A DNA stretch of 32,786 nucleotides from contig JADGHN010000003.1 of assembly GCA_019683875.1 (NCBI GenBank), positions 1 through 32,786 of the forward strand, written 5' to 3'. The notes under the pieces were generated by a model. That model saw only the letters and a list, made by a program, of their open reading frames with translations, ran no database searches and was not told the origin of the DNA. Made by a program: the position numbers and the translations under genes. Every line of letters starts with the position of its first letter. Within the stretch, counting starts at the first letter, position 1. This document shows positions 1 to 10,153 of this stretch, piece after piece. The DNA is from Clostridia bacterium (GTDB taxonomy: Bacteria; Bacillota; Sulfobacillia; RBS10-35; Bu92).

Positions 1-49
1 CCGCGGGGTACAGCGTGGCCTGCAGAAACGCCTGTCTCAACCGTCTCAT
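1..49 (-). CDS. Start of a downstream gene cut by the window edge
   Basis: An ATG on the minus strand at 49-47 overlaps the stop codon of the flavin oxidoreductase gene (ATGA arrangement) and opens a frame that runs off the left edge. The visible peptide is MRRLRQAFLQATLYPA. The four-base overlap is the same coupling seen elsewhere in the window, which is the main support. There is no strong ribosome site of its own, so translation would rely on coupling. Sixteen residues are too few to name a family; the basic N-terminus followed by apolar residues could precede a membrane segment, but that is a guess. Confidence 0.4.
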   Translation of the reverse strand, partial: MRRLRQAFLQATLYPA

Positions 50-1080
50 GTCTCGCGGCTCGCGGCCGCGGCGTCCGCCGCGCCCGCGAACATCGGCGCC
101 ACCTGCCGCGCGAAGCGTTCCAGCGACGCGCGCACGAGATCCGCGCTCAGCCCGCCGAAACTCGCCAGGAGCAGAACGAGCGACACGCCCATCGCCCGCG
201 CGCTCTCCACGCGCCGCGCCACCTGGGCCGCGTCCCCAAACCACACGAAGTCCCGCGATATGGGCGTTCCCTCATACCGCGCGCCCGGCGCCCGCCGCGT
301 GTCCAGATACAGGCGCAGCGCGTCCTCGGCGGCCGCGTACGCGGGATCGTCCGGACCCTGCCACGGGACCTCGCCCACGAACGCGTGGCAGGCGATGCCC
401 ACGCGCCCCTCGCCCGGGTGGCCGCCTTCCTCGCGCCCCCGCCGGTATTCCGACAGCAGCCGGGCGAGGTCCGCGTCGCCGGCCAGGCGGATGTACGGCA
501 CGCAGATGACGTCGTGGCCGGCGCGACCGACGAACGGCGCCGGCTCGGGCCGCGTGATGCCGAGCCAGATCGGCGGGTGCGGCGCCTGCACGGGCAGGAC
601 GTTCAGGCGGGCGCCGTCGACGCGCCAGTACCGGCCTTCGTGCCGCACGACCTCGCCGCGCCACGCCCGCCGGATCACGGCCAGGCTCTCTTCGAACCTC
701 TCCCGCTTCTCGTCTGTGTTCAGCCCGAAGCCGACGAACTCGTGCGCGAGGTACCCGCTGCCCACGCCGAACTCCAGGCGGCCGCCGGAGACGGCGTCGA
801 CAAACGCGTAGTCTTCGGCGATGCGCATGGGGTGCTGTAGAGGAAGCACGGCCACGGCCGCGCCCAGGCGCACGCGGCGGGCGCGCTGCGCCGCCGCGGC
901 GAGGAACGCGGCCGGCGACGGCGACACGCCGTAATCGGAGAAGTGGTGCTCCGCGACCCAGACTTCGAGGTCCAGGGCGTCGCAGAATTCCGCCAGGTCC
1001 AGTGCCTCTTGAAGAAAGCGGGCGCGGTCCGGAGAGCGCCCGGGGTAGTAGTCCATCGTGAGGAAGATGCCGAAGCGCAT
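46..1080 (-). CDS. LLM-class flavin-dependent oxidoreductase (luciferase-like monooxygenase family)
   Basis: A 344-residue bacterial-luciferase-like enzyme expected to use reduced FMN or F420 for oxidation of an unidentified substrate in the cytoplasm. The N-terminus MRFGIFLTMDYYPG, the WVAEHHF motif at residues 41-47 and the segments VSGGRLEFGVGSGY, FEESLAVIRRAW and APHPPIWLG are hallmarks of the TIM-barrel family, and the length is typical. The reading frame stays open far upstream, but the ATG at 1080 is preceded by an AAGGGAAGGG ribosome site and begins exactly where the first beta strand of the family begins. It is transcribed away from fabF across a 120-bp gap and is coupled by ATGA to the next gene. 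The substrate cannot be read from sequence. Family assignment is secure. Confidence 0.9.
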   Translation of the reverse strand: MRFGIFLTMDYYPGRSPDRARFLQEALDLAEFCDALDLEVWVAEHHFSDYGVSPSPAAFLAAAAQRARRVRLGAAVAVLPLQHPMRIAEDYAFVDAVSGGRLEFGVGSGYLAHEFVGFGLNTDEKRERFEESLAVIRRAWRGEVVRHEGRYWRVDGARLNVLPVQAPHPPIWLGITRPEPAPFVGRAGHDVICVPYIRLAGDADLARLLSEYRRGREEGGHPGEGRVGIACHAFVGEVPWQGPDDPAYAAAEDALRLYLDTRRAPGARYEGTPISRDFVWFGDAAQVARRVESARAMGVSLVLLLASFGGLSADLVRASLERFARQVAPMFAGAADAAAASRET

Positions 1081-1111
1081 GGTGCCCTTCCCTTGCCCAG
1101 AACCTACTGGC

Positions 1112-1143
1112 ACGATACCACAGTTTCCGGCCACGCAGGAAAC
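1112..1143 (-). promoter_or_regulatory. Extended -10 and inverted repeat upstream of the flavin oxidoreductase
   Basis: On the minus strand TGGTATCGT (plus 1120-1112) is an extended -10 with hexamer TATCGT, predicting a start near 1105 and a 25-base leader carrying the ribosome site. Just upstream lies a perfect inverted repeat, GTTTCC and GGAAAC separated by nine bases (1123-1143), covering the -35 area, which is where repressor operators are usual. No good -35 hexamer is seen. Both calls come from pattern reading only. Confidence 0.35.
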
Positions 1144-1200
1144 CGGACGCCATGCCGGAATAAGTACGCGGCAACGACAGCCGTGATCGAGGTGACGTCG

Positions 1201-2439
1201 TTGACGCCGACGATCCAACGGGTGGTGATCACCGGGGTCGGCGCCGTGACGCCGTTCGGCGTCGGCGCGGACACGTTCTGGCAGGGCCTGCGGGCGGGCC
1301 GGTCCGCCGTGCGCCGCCTCGACGGACCCGAATGGGAGGACCTGCCCACGCGCATCGGCGCCGTGGTGCCGGACTTCAACCCGGAGGATCATCTGGACGC
1401 CCGGACCGCGCGCCGAACGGCGCGGTTCGGCCAGTTCGCTGTGGCCGCCGCGCGGGAGGCGGTGCTCAAGGCCGGGCTGGACGTGGAACGCGAAGCCGGC
1501 GAGATCGGCGTCGTATTGGGCACGGCCGGCGGCCTCTTCAGCGCGGGGTACCAGGAGCGGCTTCTGGCCGAGAGGGGCCCGAAACGCGTCGACCCGCTCT
1601 TCGTCACGCGCCAGGGTCCGCACATGGCCTCGGCGCGCGTCGCACGGGAACTGGGCCTGCGCGGGCCGAACACCACGGTGAACAGCGCGTGCGCCAGCGG
1701 GGCGGACGCCATCGGGCAGGCGCTCAACCTCGTCCGCCTCGGGCAAGCGCCCGTCGTCCTCGCGGGCGGCAGCGAGGCCATCACCCACCCGGTGACGATC
1801 GCCTCGCTGGGCATTGTCGGCGCCCTCTCCCAGCGCAACGACGAGCCGGAACGCGCTTCGCGCCCGTTCGACCTTCACCGCGACGGCTTCGTGCTCGGGG
1901 AAGGGGCCGGGATTCTGGTCCTGGAGAGCGAGGCGCACGCCGTGGCGCGCGGCGCCCCCATCCTGGCCGAACTCGCCGGCGCCGGCTGGTCCTTCGACGC
2001 CACGGACGACACGGCGCCGGACGCGGAAGGTCAGGCCCTGGCGATGGCGCGCGCCCTGCGGGACGCCGGTTGCCGTCCGGACGACGTCGATTGGATCAAG
2101 GCGCACGGCACCTCCACCCCGCTCAACGACCGGACGGAGACGGCCGCCATCAAGCGCGTCTTCGGCGAGCGCGCATACGGCGTGGCGGTGAGCTCCATGA
2201 AGTCCATGATCGGTCACGCCGCGTCGGCCTCCGGCGCCGTGGAGGCCGTCGGAGCGGTCCTGGCGCTCCTCCACCAGACGATCCCGCCGACGATCAATTA
2301 CGAGACGCCGGACCCGGACTGCGACCTGGACTACGTGCCCAACGAGGCGCGTCCCGCGAGGATCCGGACGGTCTTGATCAACGCCTTCGGTTTGGGGGGC
2401 CAGAATGCCTCGCTCGTCATTCGAGCCTACGAACCCTAG
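1201..2439 (+). CDS. fabF: Beta-ketoacyl-ACP synthase II
   Basis: Condensing enzyme of type II fatty acid synthesis: decarboxylative condensation of malonyl-ACP with acyl-ACP, in the cytosol. The 412-residue product has the usual length. The Cys-His-His triad is intact: C164 in NSACASGAD, H302 in KAHGTSTPLND and H339 in SMIGHAAS, with the conserved K334 and the C-terminal NAFGLGGQNASLV motif. The open frame extends further upstream, but the TTG at 1201 is chosen because GAGGTGA (1189-1195) sits five bases before it and the protein then starts TPTIQRVVITGVGAVTP as expected; GTG codons at 1183 and 1192 have no ribosome site. The last 35 bases overlap the next gene. The usual neighbours fabD, fabG and acpP are absent here. 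Confidence 0.96.
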   Translation: MTPTIQRVVITGVGAVTPFGVGADTFWQGLRAGRSAVRRLDGPEWEDLPTRIGAVVPDFNPEDHLDARTARRTARFGQFAVAAAREAVLKAGLDVEREAGEIGVVLGTAGGLFSAGYQERLLAERGPKRVDPLFVTRQGPHMASARVARELGLRGPNTTVNSACASGADAIGQALNLVRLGQAPVVLAGGSEAITHPVTIASLGIVGALSQRNDEPERASRPFDLHRDGFVLGEGAGILVLESEAHAVARGAPILAELAGAGWSFDATDDTAPDAEGQALAMARALRDAGCRPDDVDWIKAHGTSTPLNDRTETAAIKRVFGERAYGVAVSSMKSMIGHAASASGAVEAVGAVLALLHQTIPPTINYETPDPDCDLDYVPNEARPARIRTVLINAFGLGGQNASLVIRAYEP

Positions 2440-3454
2440 CGCCGGGCCGTCCCGCCCCGTGCGCGTGGCCGTCGACGCCATGGGCGGCGACCACGCGCCG
2501 GCGGAGCCGGTGCGCGGCGCCCTGGAGGCCGTGCGCCGCGCCGGCGGGCAGCTGGAGGTGCTGCTCGTCGGCCGTGAGCCGGAGGTGCACGCGGAGCTGG
2601 AGCGGGCCGGCGGCGCCCCGGCAGGCGTGCGCGTCGTCCACGCGCCGCACGTCGTCCCCGACGGCGGCCACCCCGCGGCCTTCATGCGCGCTCACCCGGA
2701 CAACAGCATCAGCGTGGCGGCGCGGCTGGCGGCCGAAGGAGAGGCCGACGCCACCCTGTCCGTCGGTCACACGGGCGGCTGCGTCGTGGCGGCCAGCTGG
2801 CACATGGGGCTCCTCCCGGGCATCGACCGGCCCACGGCCGGCGTTCACTTTCCGTTCGCGCCGAAGACGGTGCTGCTGGACCTCGGCCTGAACCCGGAGC
2901 CGAAGCCGCACCAGCTCTTCCAGTTCGCCGTCCTCGGCGCCGCCTACGCGCGGATCATGCTCGACGTGCCACAGCCGACGGTCGCCCTGCTGTCCAACGG
3001 CACCGAGCCGGGCAAGGGCACCGACACCGTCCGCCGCGCGTACGAGCTCCTCAAGCGCAGCCACCTCCGCTTCGCCGGCTACGTGGAAGGGATCGACGTG
3101 GTCGCGAACAAGGTGAACGTCATCGTCACGGACGGGTTTACCGGCAACGTGATGATCAAGTTCCTCGAGGGGCTCAGCATGTGGATCGGCGACCGCATCC
3201 GGCAGCTGGCGGACCACGCCGCCCTGTCGCAGCTCAGGTCCCTCCTTTCCGACCTCGACCGCATGACGGACGTCACGCAGGGCGTCGACGGCATCGCCGT
3301 GCTCGGCGTCAACGGCATCTTCGTCCCCGGCCACGGCCGGGCGCGCGCGTCCGCGATCGCCAACCTCATCCTCGGTGCCGTGCGCATGGTCCGGCGCGAT
3401 TTCGTGAACCAGGTCCGGCAGGAACTGCTCCGGGCGACGGACGCGCTGGCCTGA
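2405..3454 (+). CDS. plsX: PlsX-family phosphate acyltransferase, divergent
   Basis: PlsX converts acyl-ACP and phosphate to acyl-phosphate, the donor for PlsY in phospholipid synthesis. The frame starts at ATG 2405, six bases after a G-rich stretch inside fabF; GTG 2459 is an alternative nearer the conserved VAVDAMGGDHAP start. The length of 349 residues is normal. VAVDAMGGDHAPAEPV, GIDRPTAG, LLDLGLNPEPKPH and VIVTDGFTGNVMIKFLEG establish the family. Several otherwise conserved spots differ: the usual SAGNTGA loop reads SVGHTGG with H122, LLDVGAN reads LLDLGLN, LLNxGxE reads LLSNGTE, and the C-terminal GGAxLLG region reads VDGIAVLG. It may be a functional variant or a paralogue with altered chemistry. 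The 35-base overlap with fabF implies translational coupling. Confidence 0.85.
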   Translation: MPRSSFEPTNPSAGPSRPVRVAVDAMGGDHAPAEPVRGALEAVRRAGGQLEVLLVGREPEVHAELERAGGAPAGVRVVHAPHVVPDGGHPAAFMRAHPDNSISVAARLAAEGEADATLSVGHTGGCVVAASWHMGLLPGIDRPTAGVHFPFAPKTVLLDLGLNPEPKPHQLFQFAVLGAAYARIMLDVPQPTVALLSNGTEPGKGTDTVRRAYELLKRSHLRFAGYVEGIDVVANKVNVIVTDGFTGNVMIKFLEGLSMWIGDRIRQLADHAALSQLRSLLSDLDRMTDVTQGVDGIAVLGVNGIFVPGHGRARASAIANLILGAVRMVRRDFVNQVRQELLRATDALA

Positions 3455-7257: not shown

Positions 7258-8670
7258 TCACGGGGCGCGCCGCGCCTGGAGCGCCCGGTACCCCCACGCC
7301 AGCCGGCCGAGGGCCAGGGCGTGGGTCAGCACCGCAAGAAGGACCAGGGCCACCCACGGGACGGCCAGCAGCCCGCCGACGAAAACGACGAAGCAGCGGC
7401 CGTCGCGGTTCGCCGGGATCCAGCGCAGCCAGGCGGGGTCGTCCGCCAGCGGGTCGTAGCGGCGGCTCGCCTCCACCTGCCCGAGCAGGCGCATGCGGTC
7501 CTTCATCAGCGCGGACAGCGGCATGCCGGCCAGCGCCGCCAGCCCGGCCCACCACACGGCGGCCGGCGCCGCGCTCGCAAGACCCCAGCCCGGCGCGTCC
7601 GGCGCGAGCGCGCCGGCCATCAGGCCGGCGACGAGCACGGCGTCCGCGTACCGGTCGAGCACGGTGTCGAGAAAGGCGCCCGCCGGGCGCTGCGCCAACC
7701 GGAGCCGCGCGAGTTCCCCGTCGACGCCGTCGATGACGGACGACAGCTGCACGAGCACGCCGCCCAGCGCGGGGTGTCCCGCCGCGAAGGCTGCCGCCGC
7801 GAGGCCCATCAGCACGAAGGCGATGGCCGTCACGGCGTCAGGCGTCACCCGCGTGCCTCCAAGCGCGCGCGTGACGAGGCGGGACAGCGGGCGGTTCAAG
7901 TGCCGGGCGACGGGGCCGTCGCCGCCGGACGCGGTGGCGTGCGCCAGTAGGCGGGCGGCCGCGGCCCGCGCCGCCGGCGCGTCGTCCACGTCCACCCACC
8001 ACCCGCGCTCCAGCGGCACCGCGAGGAGGCGCCCTCGCTCCGCGAGCCGCGCGGCCGCCGCCGTCAGCGTGACCTCTCCTCCCCCGGATTCCCGGTCGAT
8101 CGCCGCGAGCGCGTCGAGGAGACCGTCCGAACCGACGAACACGCCGGCGTCCACGCCGTCGAACGCCTCCAGGCCCTTGCCGATGGCCTCGATGCGGTCG
8201 CCTCGCCGCCGCACGCGCGTCGCCTCGTCGAGATCGAAGACGTCCTCGAGTCGCCCGTCCACGAGGAGGAGAGCGGCTCCCTCGCCGAGCTCGGCCCACC
8301 GGGCGCGAGCCGCCTCCGCGGCGCAGCGCGCCACCTCCGGGTCCATGACGTGATCCGCCATGACGAGCAAAAAGGGTTCGCCGCGGAGGAGGGGCGCGGC
8401 CGCGAGAAGACTCGCGCCGTTGCCGCGCCGCCACCCGTCCGCGCGAACCCACCGCGCCCCCTCGCCGAGCGCGCGCTCAAGCCGTGACCGGACCTGGTCG
8501 GACGCGTACCCGGTGACGATGACGAGTTCCTCGCACCCGGCGGACCGCAGGCATCGCGCGGCCCGCTCCAGCAACGTCAGGCCGAAGAGCGGGTACAGGG
8601 GCTTGGGCATGCCGCCGGCGACCGGCCGAAGGCGGCTCCCTTCGCCGGCGGCGAGGATCGCGCCCTTCAT
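7258..8670 (-). CDS. Bifunctional inositol-1-phosphate cytidylyltransferase / CDP-inositol:inositol-1-phosphate transferase (DIPP synthase)
   Basis: A 470-residue fusion. Residues 1 to about 245 form a nucleotidyltransferase: LAAGEGSRLRP (6-16), MPKPLYP (21-27) and MADH (104-107), predicted to make CDP-inositol from CTP and inositol-1-phosphate. Residues from about 255 form a membrane CDP-alcohol phosphotransferase with N-terminal LNRPLSRLVTRAL and the exact motif D317-G-x2-A321-R322-x8-G331-x3-D335-x3-D339, followed by several hydrophobic helices. This fusion is the known IPCT-DIPPS enzyme that makes phosphorylated di-myo-inositol-phosphate in Archaeoglobus, Thermotogales and Rubrobacter. 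The adjacent upstream inositol-1-phosphate synthase supplies the substrate. The start at 8670 is 14 bases from that gene's stop. No dedicated DIPP phosphatase is in the window. A phospholipid role cannot be excluded, but normal phosphatidylinositol synthases lack the cytidylyltransferase half. Confidence 0.88.
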   Translation of the reverse strand: MKGAILAAGEGSRLRPVAGGMPKPLYPLFGLTLLERAARCLRSAGCEELVIVTGYASDQVRSRLERALGEGARWVRADGWRRGNGASLLAAAPLLRGEPFLLVMADHVMDPEVARCAAEAARARWAELGEGAALLLVDGRLEDVFDLDEATRVRRRGDRIEAIGKGLEAFDGVDAGVFVGSDGLLDALAAIDRESGGGEVTLTAAAARLAERGRLLAVPLERGWWVDVDDAPAARAAAARLLAHATASGGDGPVARHLNRPLSRLVTRALGGTRVTPDAVTAIAFVLMGLAAAAFAAGHPALGGVLVQLSSVIDGVDGELARLRLAQRPAGAFLDTVLDRYADAVLVAGLMAGALAPDAPGWGLASAAPAAVWWAGLAALAGMPLSALMKDRMRLLGQVEASRRYDPLADDPAWLRWIPANRDGRCFVVFVGGLLAVPWVALVLLAVLTHALALGRLAWGYRALQARRAP

Positions 8671-8684
8671 CGCGCCACGCCCCG

Positions 8685-9824
8685 TCAGTCGGCGCTCGCG
8701 TGAGCGACGAGGTCCTCGGCCGGCGCGTCGTCCGTCGCCTCGCCGCGGATGAACGCCTCCATGAGCCGGCGCGCCTCATAGTCCGGGTACTGGACGGGCG
8801 GCGACTTCATGAGGTACGCCGAGACGGGCTTGATCGGGCCGGCGAGCCCGCGGTCCAGGGCGAGCTTCGCGCAACGCACGGCGTCGATCATGACGCCCGC
8901 GCTGTTCGGCGAGTCCATGACGGACAGCCGCAGCTCCAGCTCGATGGGCTGGTCGCCGAAACCGCGGCCCTCCATGCGGATCATGCACACCTTGTTGTCC
9001 TCGAGCCACGGGACGTAGTCGCTGGGCCCGATGTGGATGCGCTCGTCCGCCAACGGCGTTTCGAGCTGGGACTGTACCGACTGCGTCTTGGACTTCTTCT
9101 TGCTCTTCAGCCGCGAGTGGTTGAGCATGTTGAGGAAGTCGGTGTTGCCGCCGAAGTTGAGCTGGTACGTGCGCTCGAGGCGGACGCCGCGCTCCTCGAA
9201 AAGCCGCGTCAGCACGCGGTGCACGATCGTGGCGCCGACCTGGCTCTTGATGTCGTCGCCGATCACCGGCAGGCCCTTCCGGCGGAAGCGCTCGCCCCAC
9301 TGCGGCGACGACGCGATGAACACCGGGATGGCGTTCACGAACGCCACGCCCGCCTCCAGAGCCGCTTCGGCATAGGCGCGCGTCGCCTGCTCCGAGCCGA
9401 CGGGCAGGTAGTTCACCAGCACGTCGGCGCGCGTCTCCTTCAGCACGCGGGCGACGTCCACGGGAGAGGCGTCCGCCACCTTGAAGGTGCGGTCCTCCGG
9501 GTAGTCGCGCATGTGGTCGCTGAAGCCGTCGAGCACGGGCCCCATCTGAACGGTGACGGGGATCTCAGGAAGCTCCTGGAACACGGGCGTGCAGTTCGGC
9601 CGCGCCATCAGCGCCTCGTGCAGCGGACGGCCGACCTTGCGCGCGTCGATGTCGAAGGCCGCGACAAATTCGATGTCCTGCGGCCGGTAGCCGCCGATCG
9701 ACGCGTGCATCAGCCCGGACAGTTCGTCCGCGCGCTTTGGATCCGAGTAGTAGTGGACGCCTTGCACAAGCGAACTGGCACAGTTGCCGACACCGGCCAG
9801 GGCCACACGAACCTTGCCTGGCAT
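8685..9824 (-). CDS. ino1: Inositol-3-phosphate (myo-inositol-1-phosphate) synthase
   Basis: Converts glucose-6-phosphate to L-myo-inositol-1-phosphate with bound NAD. The 379-residue protein is of the short archaeal/actinobacterial type. It has the Rossmann motif [13 protein letters not shown] (11-23), [64 protein letters not shown] with the Lys-rich [12 protein letters not shown] segment, and [20 protein letters not shown] 9824 follows GGGAGGTGG with eight-base spacing; the longer open frame to 10040 covers the promoter and is not coding. It is the first gene of a two-gene operon with the IPCT-DIPPS fusion, which directs its product to DIP rather than only to phosphatidylinositol or mycothiol. 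Confidence 0.95.
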
Positions 9825-9861
9825 GATCGATCCACCTCCCAGACGCGGGGCGCCCTCCAAA

Positions 9862-9895
9862 GGGACGCGACGCACCGGCCGGCGATGCGCGTCCC
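9862..9895 (-). promoter_or_regulatory. Hairpin in the ino1 leader
   Basis: Perfect arms GGGACGCG (9862-9869) and CGCGTCCC (9888-9895) enclose an 18-base region containing the palindrome CCGGCCGG, so the predicted 165-base leader of the inositol operon holds a very stable stem. It ends 21 bases before the ribosome site. No U-run follows, so it is not an intrinsic terminator. Its role, if any, is unknown. Confidence 0.45.
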
Positions 9896-9996
9896 ATCCG
9901 GACGGCGTCCCCGGTATTGAGATTGAAGCGAGCATCCAGACAACGGCTTTCAGATATGGATATGCGGCTCGAGCCGACAGGGCAACCTGCACGTTC

Positions 9997-10025
9997 AGTA
10001 TAGCAAACCCAGGAGAAAATGGCAA
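9997..10025 (-). promoter_or_regulatory. Sigma-A promoter of the inositol/DIP operon
   Basis: On the minus strand TTGCCA (plus 10025-10020) and TATACT (plus 10002-9997) are separated by exactly 17 bases. Each hexamer matches consensus at five of six positions, and TGC precedes the -10, making it an extended -10. Transcription should start near 9990, giving a leader of about 165 bases before ATG 9824. This is the best promoter in the window. Confidence 0.8.
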
Positions 10026-10034
10026 CCGCACCCG

Positions 10035-10051
10035 ATACACATCTAGTGTAT
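10035..10051. promoter_or_regulatory. 17-bp palindromic operator candidate at the DIP promoter
   Basis: ATACAC and GTGTAT form a perfect inverted repeat with a five-base spacer (ATCTA), centred about 53 bp upstream of the predicted transcription start and nine bp upstream of the -35. That is a classic position for an activator and possible for a repressor. The sequence is AT-rich against a very GC-rich background. The protein that would bind is not in the window as far as I can tell. Confidence 0.5.
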
Positions 10052-10081
10052 AAGAATCTACTTACGTTAATAGGTAATCCT

Positions 10082-10107
10082 ATGCATCCCAGGAAACATA
10101 TATGCAT
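10082..10107. repeat. Paired ATGCAT sites 20 bp apart
   Basis: ATGCAT occurs at 10082-10087 and again at 10102-10107, exactly 20 bp (about two helical turns) apart; the second is inside the larger palindrome ATATGCATAT (10100-10109). Both lie in the AT-rich island between the kor terminator and the DIP promoter. Rare AT-rich palindromes in helical phase suggest a protein-binding array, but chance is possible. Confidence 0.35.
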
Positions 10108-10116
10108 ATTTGGAGC

Positions 10117-10153
10117 AAAAAAAATGCGCGCGGCCCCGGGATGGGGCCGCGCG
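10117..10153 (-). terminator. Rho-independent terminator of the korAB unit
   Basis: On the minus strand an 11-bp perfect GC stem (plus 10143-10153 with 10127-10137, five-base loop) is followed by CATTTTTTTT. It lies 23 bases after the korB stop and insulates the inositol promoter from read-through. Confidence 0.93.

Follow-up and report, generated by a model that had tools for sequence, protein, structure and literature searches.

The question raised by this locus is how a gene pair predicted for the synthesis of di-myo-inositol phosphate (DIP) is expressed, and whether its control lies with a DNA-binding protein upstream of the promoter or with the RNA leader downstream of it. The locus is on the minus strand of a 32,786-nt stretch (the window) of a source genome (G000) of 1.87 Mb in 202 contigs, and the site under study extends from the terminator of an upstream oxidoreductase gene pair to the start of the first DIP gene. 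The growth temperature was roughly estimated at 54 C from the amino-acid composition of 19 window genes.

The two genes encode homologues of inositol-3-phosphate synthase (IPS; ATG at 9824-9822, SD GGAGG) and of bifunctional IPCT/DIPPS; the best solved relative of the latter is 4mnd (E 5e-40), in which cytidylyltransferase and phosphotransferase are fused, likewise in the window homologue. Both enzymes missed the NCBIfam equivalog cut-offs (IPS, 494 vs 638 bits; IPCT/DIPPS, 209 vs 580 bits), the models for both being derived from other lineages; measured by the Thermococcales model, the IPCT/DIPPS of the window is divergent. The same two enzyme types are encoded, also as neighbours, among the DIP genes of Archaeoglobus and Thermococcales, and IPS adjoins IPCT/DIPPS in ten genomes of the class, so the pair fits a DIP operon as judged by homology and gene order, in agreement with the earlier note made on this DNA. 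Elsewhere in the window, an 879-aa ORF (46-2685, minus strand) matched luciferase-like monooxygenase over residues 536-779 only; its start is probably over-extended.

The earlier note had described an AT-rich patch in front of this operon with a near-consensus promoter, a palindromic dyad and two ATGCAT palindromes, and the minus strand does contain every one of them (Table 1). Positions 9990-10110 have a GC content of 0.397, the lowest of any 121-nt stretch in the window; the second-lowest trough, ahead of the kor genes at about 12812, has 0.488. The promoter has 10/12 consensus matches, a 17-nt spacer and TG one base before the -10 hexamer, nothing unusual for a bacterial housekeeping (sigma-70-type) extended -10 promoter, and a score this good occurs with P=0.10 in dinucleotide shuffles of the patch. 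Independent support comes from the conservation of its position and spacing, for which it is the sole case among the listed elements: the one same-genus relative in the genome collection (G001) carries TTGCCA-17-TACACT at the aligned position in the same extended -10 context, and a member of another family of the class (G144) carries TTGCCT-17-TATACT about 200 nt before IPS. By eye, but without passing the automatic filter, TTGAGC-17-TAGACT (G004) and the extended -10 TGGTATAAT (G143) were found in similar places. On this comparison of sequences the promoter is considered real, as had been claimed. Transcription would then start near 9990, giving a leader of about 166 nt, and the upstream AT-rich patch would, in our view, be promoter-proximal DNA under little sequence constraint.

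Within 700 nt upstream of IPS in G053, G034, G145 and G147 (L040, L041, L054, L055), no recognisable sigma-70-type promoter was found, in contrast to the window, G001 and G144.

Table 1. Features of the DIP locus in the window, in the order in which the minus strand is read.
Feature	Positions	Strand	Remarks
Terminator-like hairpin of upstream 2-oxoacid:ferredoxin oxidoreductase genes	10127-10153	-	
Two ATGCAT palindromes, 20 bp apart	10082-10087 and 10102-10107		Near chance
Perfect 6-N5-6 dyad, ATACAC-N5-GTGTAT	10035-10051		About -53 from the putative start near 9990
Promoter TTGCCA-17-TATACT, extended -10	9997-10025	-	TTGCCA, 10025-10020; TATACT, 10002-9997
Perfect 12-bp palindrome CGGCTCGAGCCG	9965-9976		About +15 to +26; 12/12 kept in G001
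38-nt leader block (predicted 5' arm)	9909-9946	-	37/38 identical to G001; predicted pairing with SD/start region
Variable GC-rich inner hairpin of leader	9850-9908	-	Folding prediction
Predicted 3' arm (SD, ATG, first IPS codons)	9812-9841	-	Identity with G001; predicted pairing
IPS homologue	8685-9824	-	TIGR03450, E 2.3e-148, below cut-off; Pfam PF01658
Bifunctional IPCT/DIPPS homologue	7258-8670	-	NF041135 over full length, below cut-off

For control of this promoter, the earlier note had suggested that a dimeric transcription factor on the dyad, with the ATGCAT pair as a second, phased site, induces expression. The dyad is indeed perfect and its placement suits an activator; however, at least one perfect 6+6 dyad arises with P=0.25 in dinucleotide shuffles of the patch, in which the probability of a repeated 6-mer palindrome is 0.105. 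A search for the dyad at other sites of the source genome, as the note had recommended, returned no second copy with up to one mismatch, and its lack of conservation in related genomes, by which the note itself would have given up the idea, is seen in G001, the one same-genus genome compared: no copy with up to three mismatches occurs in the 18 kb around its operon, the stretch that holds both the dyad and the ATGCAT pair is mostly 20-50% identical, and identity around the dyad itself is 35-50%. The best argument left for the dimeric factor is that G001 has an imperfect dyad of its own, GAATG-N6-CATTC, unrelated in sequence but almost equally far from the -35; we regard this as chance. The window genes gave no match to a regulator family; three ORFs had no Pfam match when scanned. 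Being at chance level, in single copy and without conservation, the dyad was rejected as an operator and is probably incidental; the ATGCAT pair, close to what chance would give in DNA of this AT content, was rejected as a second site; and induction by a dimeric factor is considered very improbable. The wider suggestion of regulated DIP gene expression stays plausible, with the conserved candidate for it being the RNA leader that follows the promoter and not the dyad; the conserved leader with predicted occlusion of the start site is a better lead than the operator.

Three parts of the region past the promoter are conserved between the window and G001: the CGGCTCGAGCCG palindrome, the 38-nt block and the start region of IPS. 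As a neutral reference, 68/127 four-fold degenerate sites of IPS are identical (54%), and at this rate the identity of the 38-nt block would be expected at a given position with a probability of about 1.6e-9. From the SD through the ATG into IPS codon 5, 29/29 bases are identical, including the rare codon CCA (7/296 proline codons in 13 window genes). Positions of the block predicted to be unpaired are no less conserved than the paired ones. An N-terminal extension of IPS was rejected as the reason for the conservation of the block, the block-ATG spacing differing from that of G001 by a non-multiple of three and the in-block ATG having no SD before it; a repeated element was rejected as well, with matches to the block at this locus only in the 61 genomes searched. 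Between palindrome and block, the window has about 16 nt with a CATATC-CATATC repeat (9949-9964) that are absent from G001.

These blocks might act as DNA, with a repressor binding to the CGGCTCGAGCCG palindrome past the start site and perhaps also to the 38-nt block. The palindrome is perfect and is kept whole in G001 at an equal distance from the promoter, it is a possible operator or small RNA hairpin, and the 38-nt block contains a TCAATC-TCAATA direct repeat; the G004 leader, too, has a perfect palindrome of its own near the presumed start. However, CGGCTCGAGCCG is not common to other genera, its other exact copies in G001 were linked to no regulon, and both the length of 38 nt and conservation reaching codon 4 are atypical of operators, so we hold repression at these blocks to be quite unlikely. 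The palindrome of G004 (L039) is likewise of 12 bp, GGTTCCGGAACC; in both genera the palindrome follows closely on the presumed start, and the two sequences are unrelated.

In the predicted fold, the 38-nt block forms a helix with the SD, the ATG and the first codons that has single mismatches and bulges and encloses the variable GC-rich hairpin. Single-sequence folding z-scores of the window and G001 leaders were -4.39 and -2.83, and that of the window leader was the lowest of 650 window segments, in a scan that advanced by 100 nt, shuffled each segment 12 times, divided by a fixed sd of 4.3 and used an offset chosen to place one segment on the leader. The strength of the block-to-start duplex was reached by 59/5000 shuffles for the window and 394/5000 for G001; a duplex energy test of the whole leader against shuffles was not significant for either, and the two-sequence consensus energy was reached by 68/1000 column shuffles. 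Between the two genomes, the inner hairpin has two pairs changed on both sides with pairing kept, and the outer helix is invariant, with no covariation. The pairing level of the leader was attained at none of 15 further gene starts of the window (lowest shuffle count, 11/80).

The start region was also examined for pairing with the leader in other genomes of the collection. Of the measures, tried in the order duplex energy, block duplex and partition function, the last gave pairing above that of shuffled leaders at p 0.018 (G000), 0.0055 (G001) and 0.0042 (G143), values that are not fully free of choice since this was the third measure tried. Pairing leaned the same way in G004 (p 0.074), G144 (0.086) and G147 (0.075), and gave p 0.14-0.40 in G053, G034 and G145, which belong to one genus; for these three and for G147 the leader start was set at -150, as no promoter had been found there. 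Combined by Fisher's method with G001 left out, eight leaders, not wholly independent because three share one genus, gave p 2e-4, and G000, G144, G143 and G004 alone gave 3e-4. The occluding sequences differ between lineages, and the feature, if real, is therefore kept as a function and not as a sequence. For the IPS leader of G143 (L053), a strong and independent occlusion helix is predicted in which GTCACCTTTTTTC pairs with GAGAAAGGGTGAC to cover the SD.

A structure without regulatory role would be expected if GC-rich leaders simply fold readily, or if the hairpin merely stabilises the mRNA. The DNA is GC-rich, several of the tests are marginal, and the Thermaerobacter leaders tested for start-region pairing did not show the feature; against this, two separate, mutually complementary blocks show conservation well in excess of the neutral rate, and the z-score of the leader stood lowest in the window scan, so that we consider a non-regulatory structure unlikely.

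We tentatively favour, at somewhat less than an even chance, the reading that the DIP operon is expressed via the conserved promoter and that its translation is gated by a leader that occludes the start region, with heat as the leading candidate for a trigger. The promoter would yield an mRNA for IPS and IPCT/DIPPS, in the leader of which the 38-nt segment would pair imperfectly with the SD, the start codon and the first IPS codons; the folded helix would close off translation initiation, and its opening would allow translation to start. The conserved arms and their predicted pairing speak for translational control and not for a DNA-binding protein. Among triggers, raised temperature seems the most plausible, since DIP protects against heat and, in Thermococcus and Pyrococcus, accumulates under heat and osmotic stress (PMC4473059).

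We infer regulation by the leader, and heat as its trigger, and the step to heat is a weak one because the predicted melting curve stays shallow to 80 C: from 37 to 80 C the computed opening of the AUG rises from 0.34 to 0.73 in the window and stays below 0.15 in G001, and the SD changes little. Opening could instead be brought about by a ligand, by a protein or with the help of the ribosome. A riboswitch, or a switch bound by a protein, answering an inositol compound, an ion or a regulator instead of temperature, would be in line with this shallow melting and with the equal conservation of unpaired and paired block positions; yet the leader has no Rfam match and is confined to one genus, unlike most riboswitches, and we judge such a switch improbable.

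The leader was also compared with known RNA families. No match at gathering score was obtained with Rfam covariance models, but weak sub-threshold matches only, and assignment to ROSE, FourU or another Rfam leader family was rejected on these grounds. A covariance model of the leader, searched against 154 genomes of the class, gave convincing matches only at the two source loci, there on both strands, owing to the near self-complementarity of the element; the remaining matches had E values of at least 0.6. In a library with few subscription journals, no title found for the regulation of DIP or for thermophile RNA thermometers described such a leader, and bacterial control of DIP synthesis was hardly described in the literature searched. 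A more far-reaching version of the proposal, that this RNA leader is of a kind not described before, is restricted to the genus and has sequence-unrelated functional analogues in related thermophiles, and that heat opens its long mismatched helix for translation of the DIP operon, is rather doubtful.

Should the prediction hold, the thermoprotectant operon of a presumed thermophile would be governed by an RNA switch; the analysis also draws attention away from an operator that is probably a product of chance. The function of the leader rests on prediction, and among known systems it is possibly thermometer-like. It differs from the RNA thermometers (ROSE, FourU and other SD-sequestering leaders) in that it has no Rfam counterpart and is restricted in sequence to one genus, and in that its predicted helix is much longer and more stable, with shallow predicted melting. 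In common with them, the SD and the start codon of the folded window leader are, in the prediction, covered by an imperfect, mismatched helix formed with the leader.
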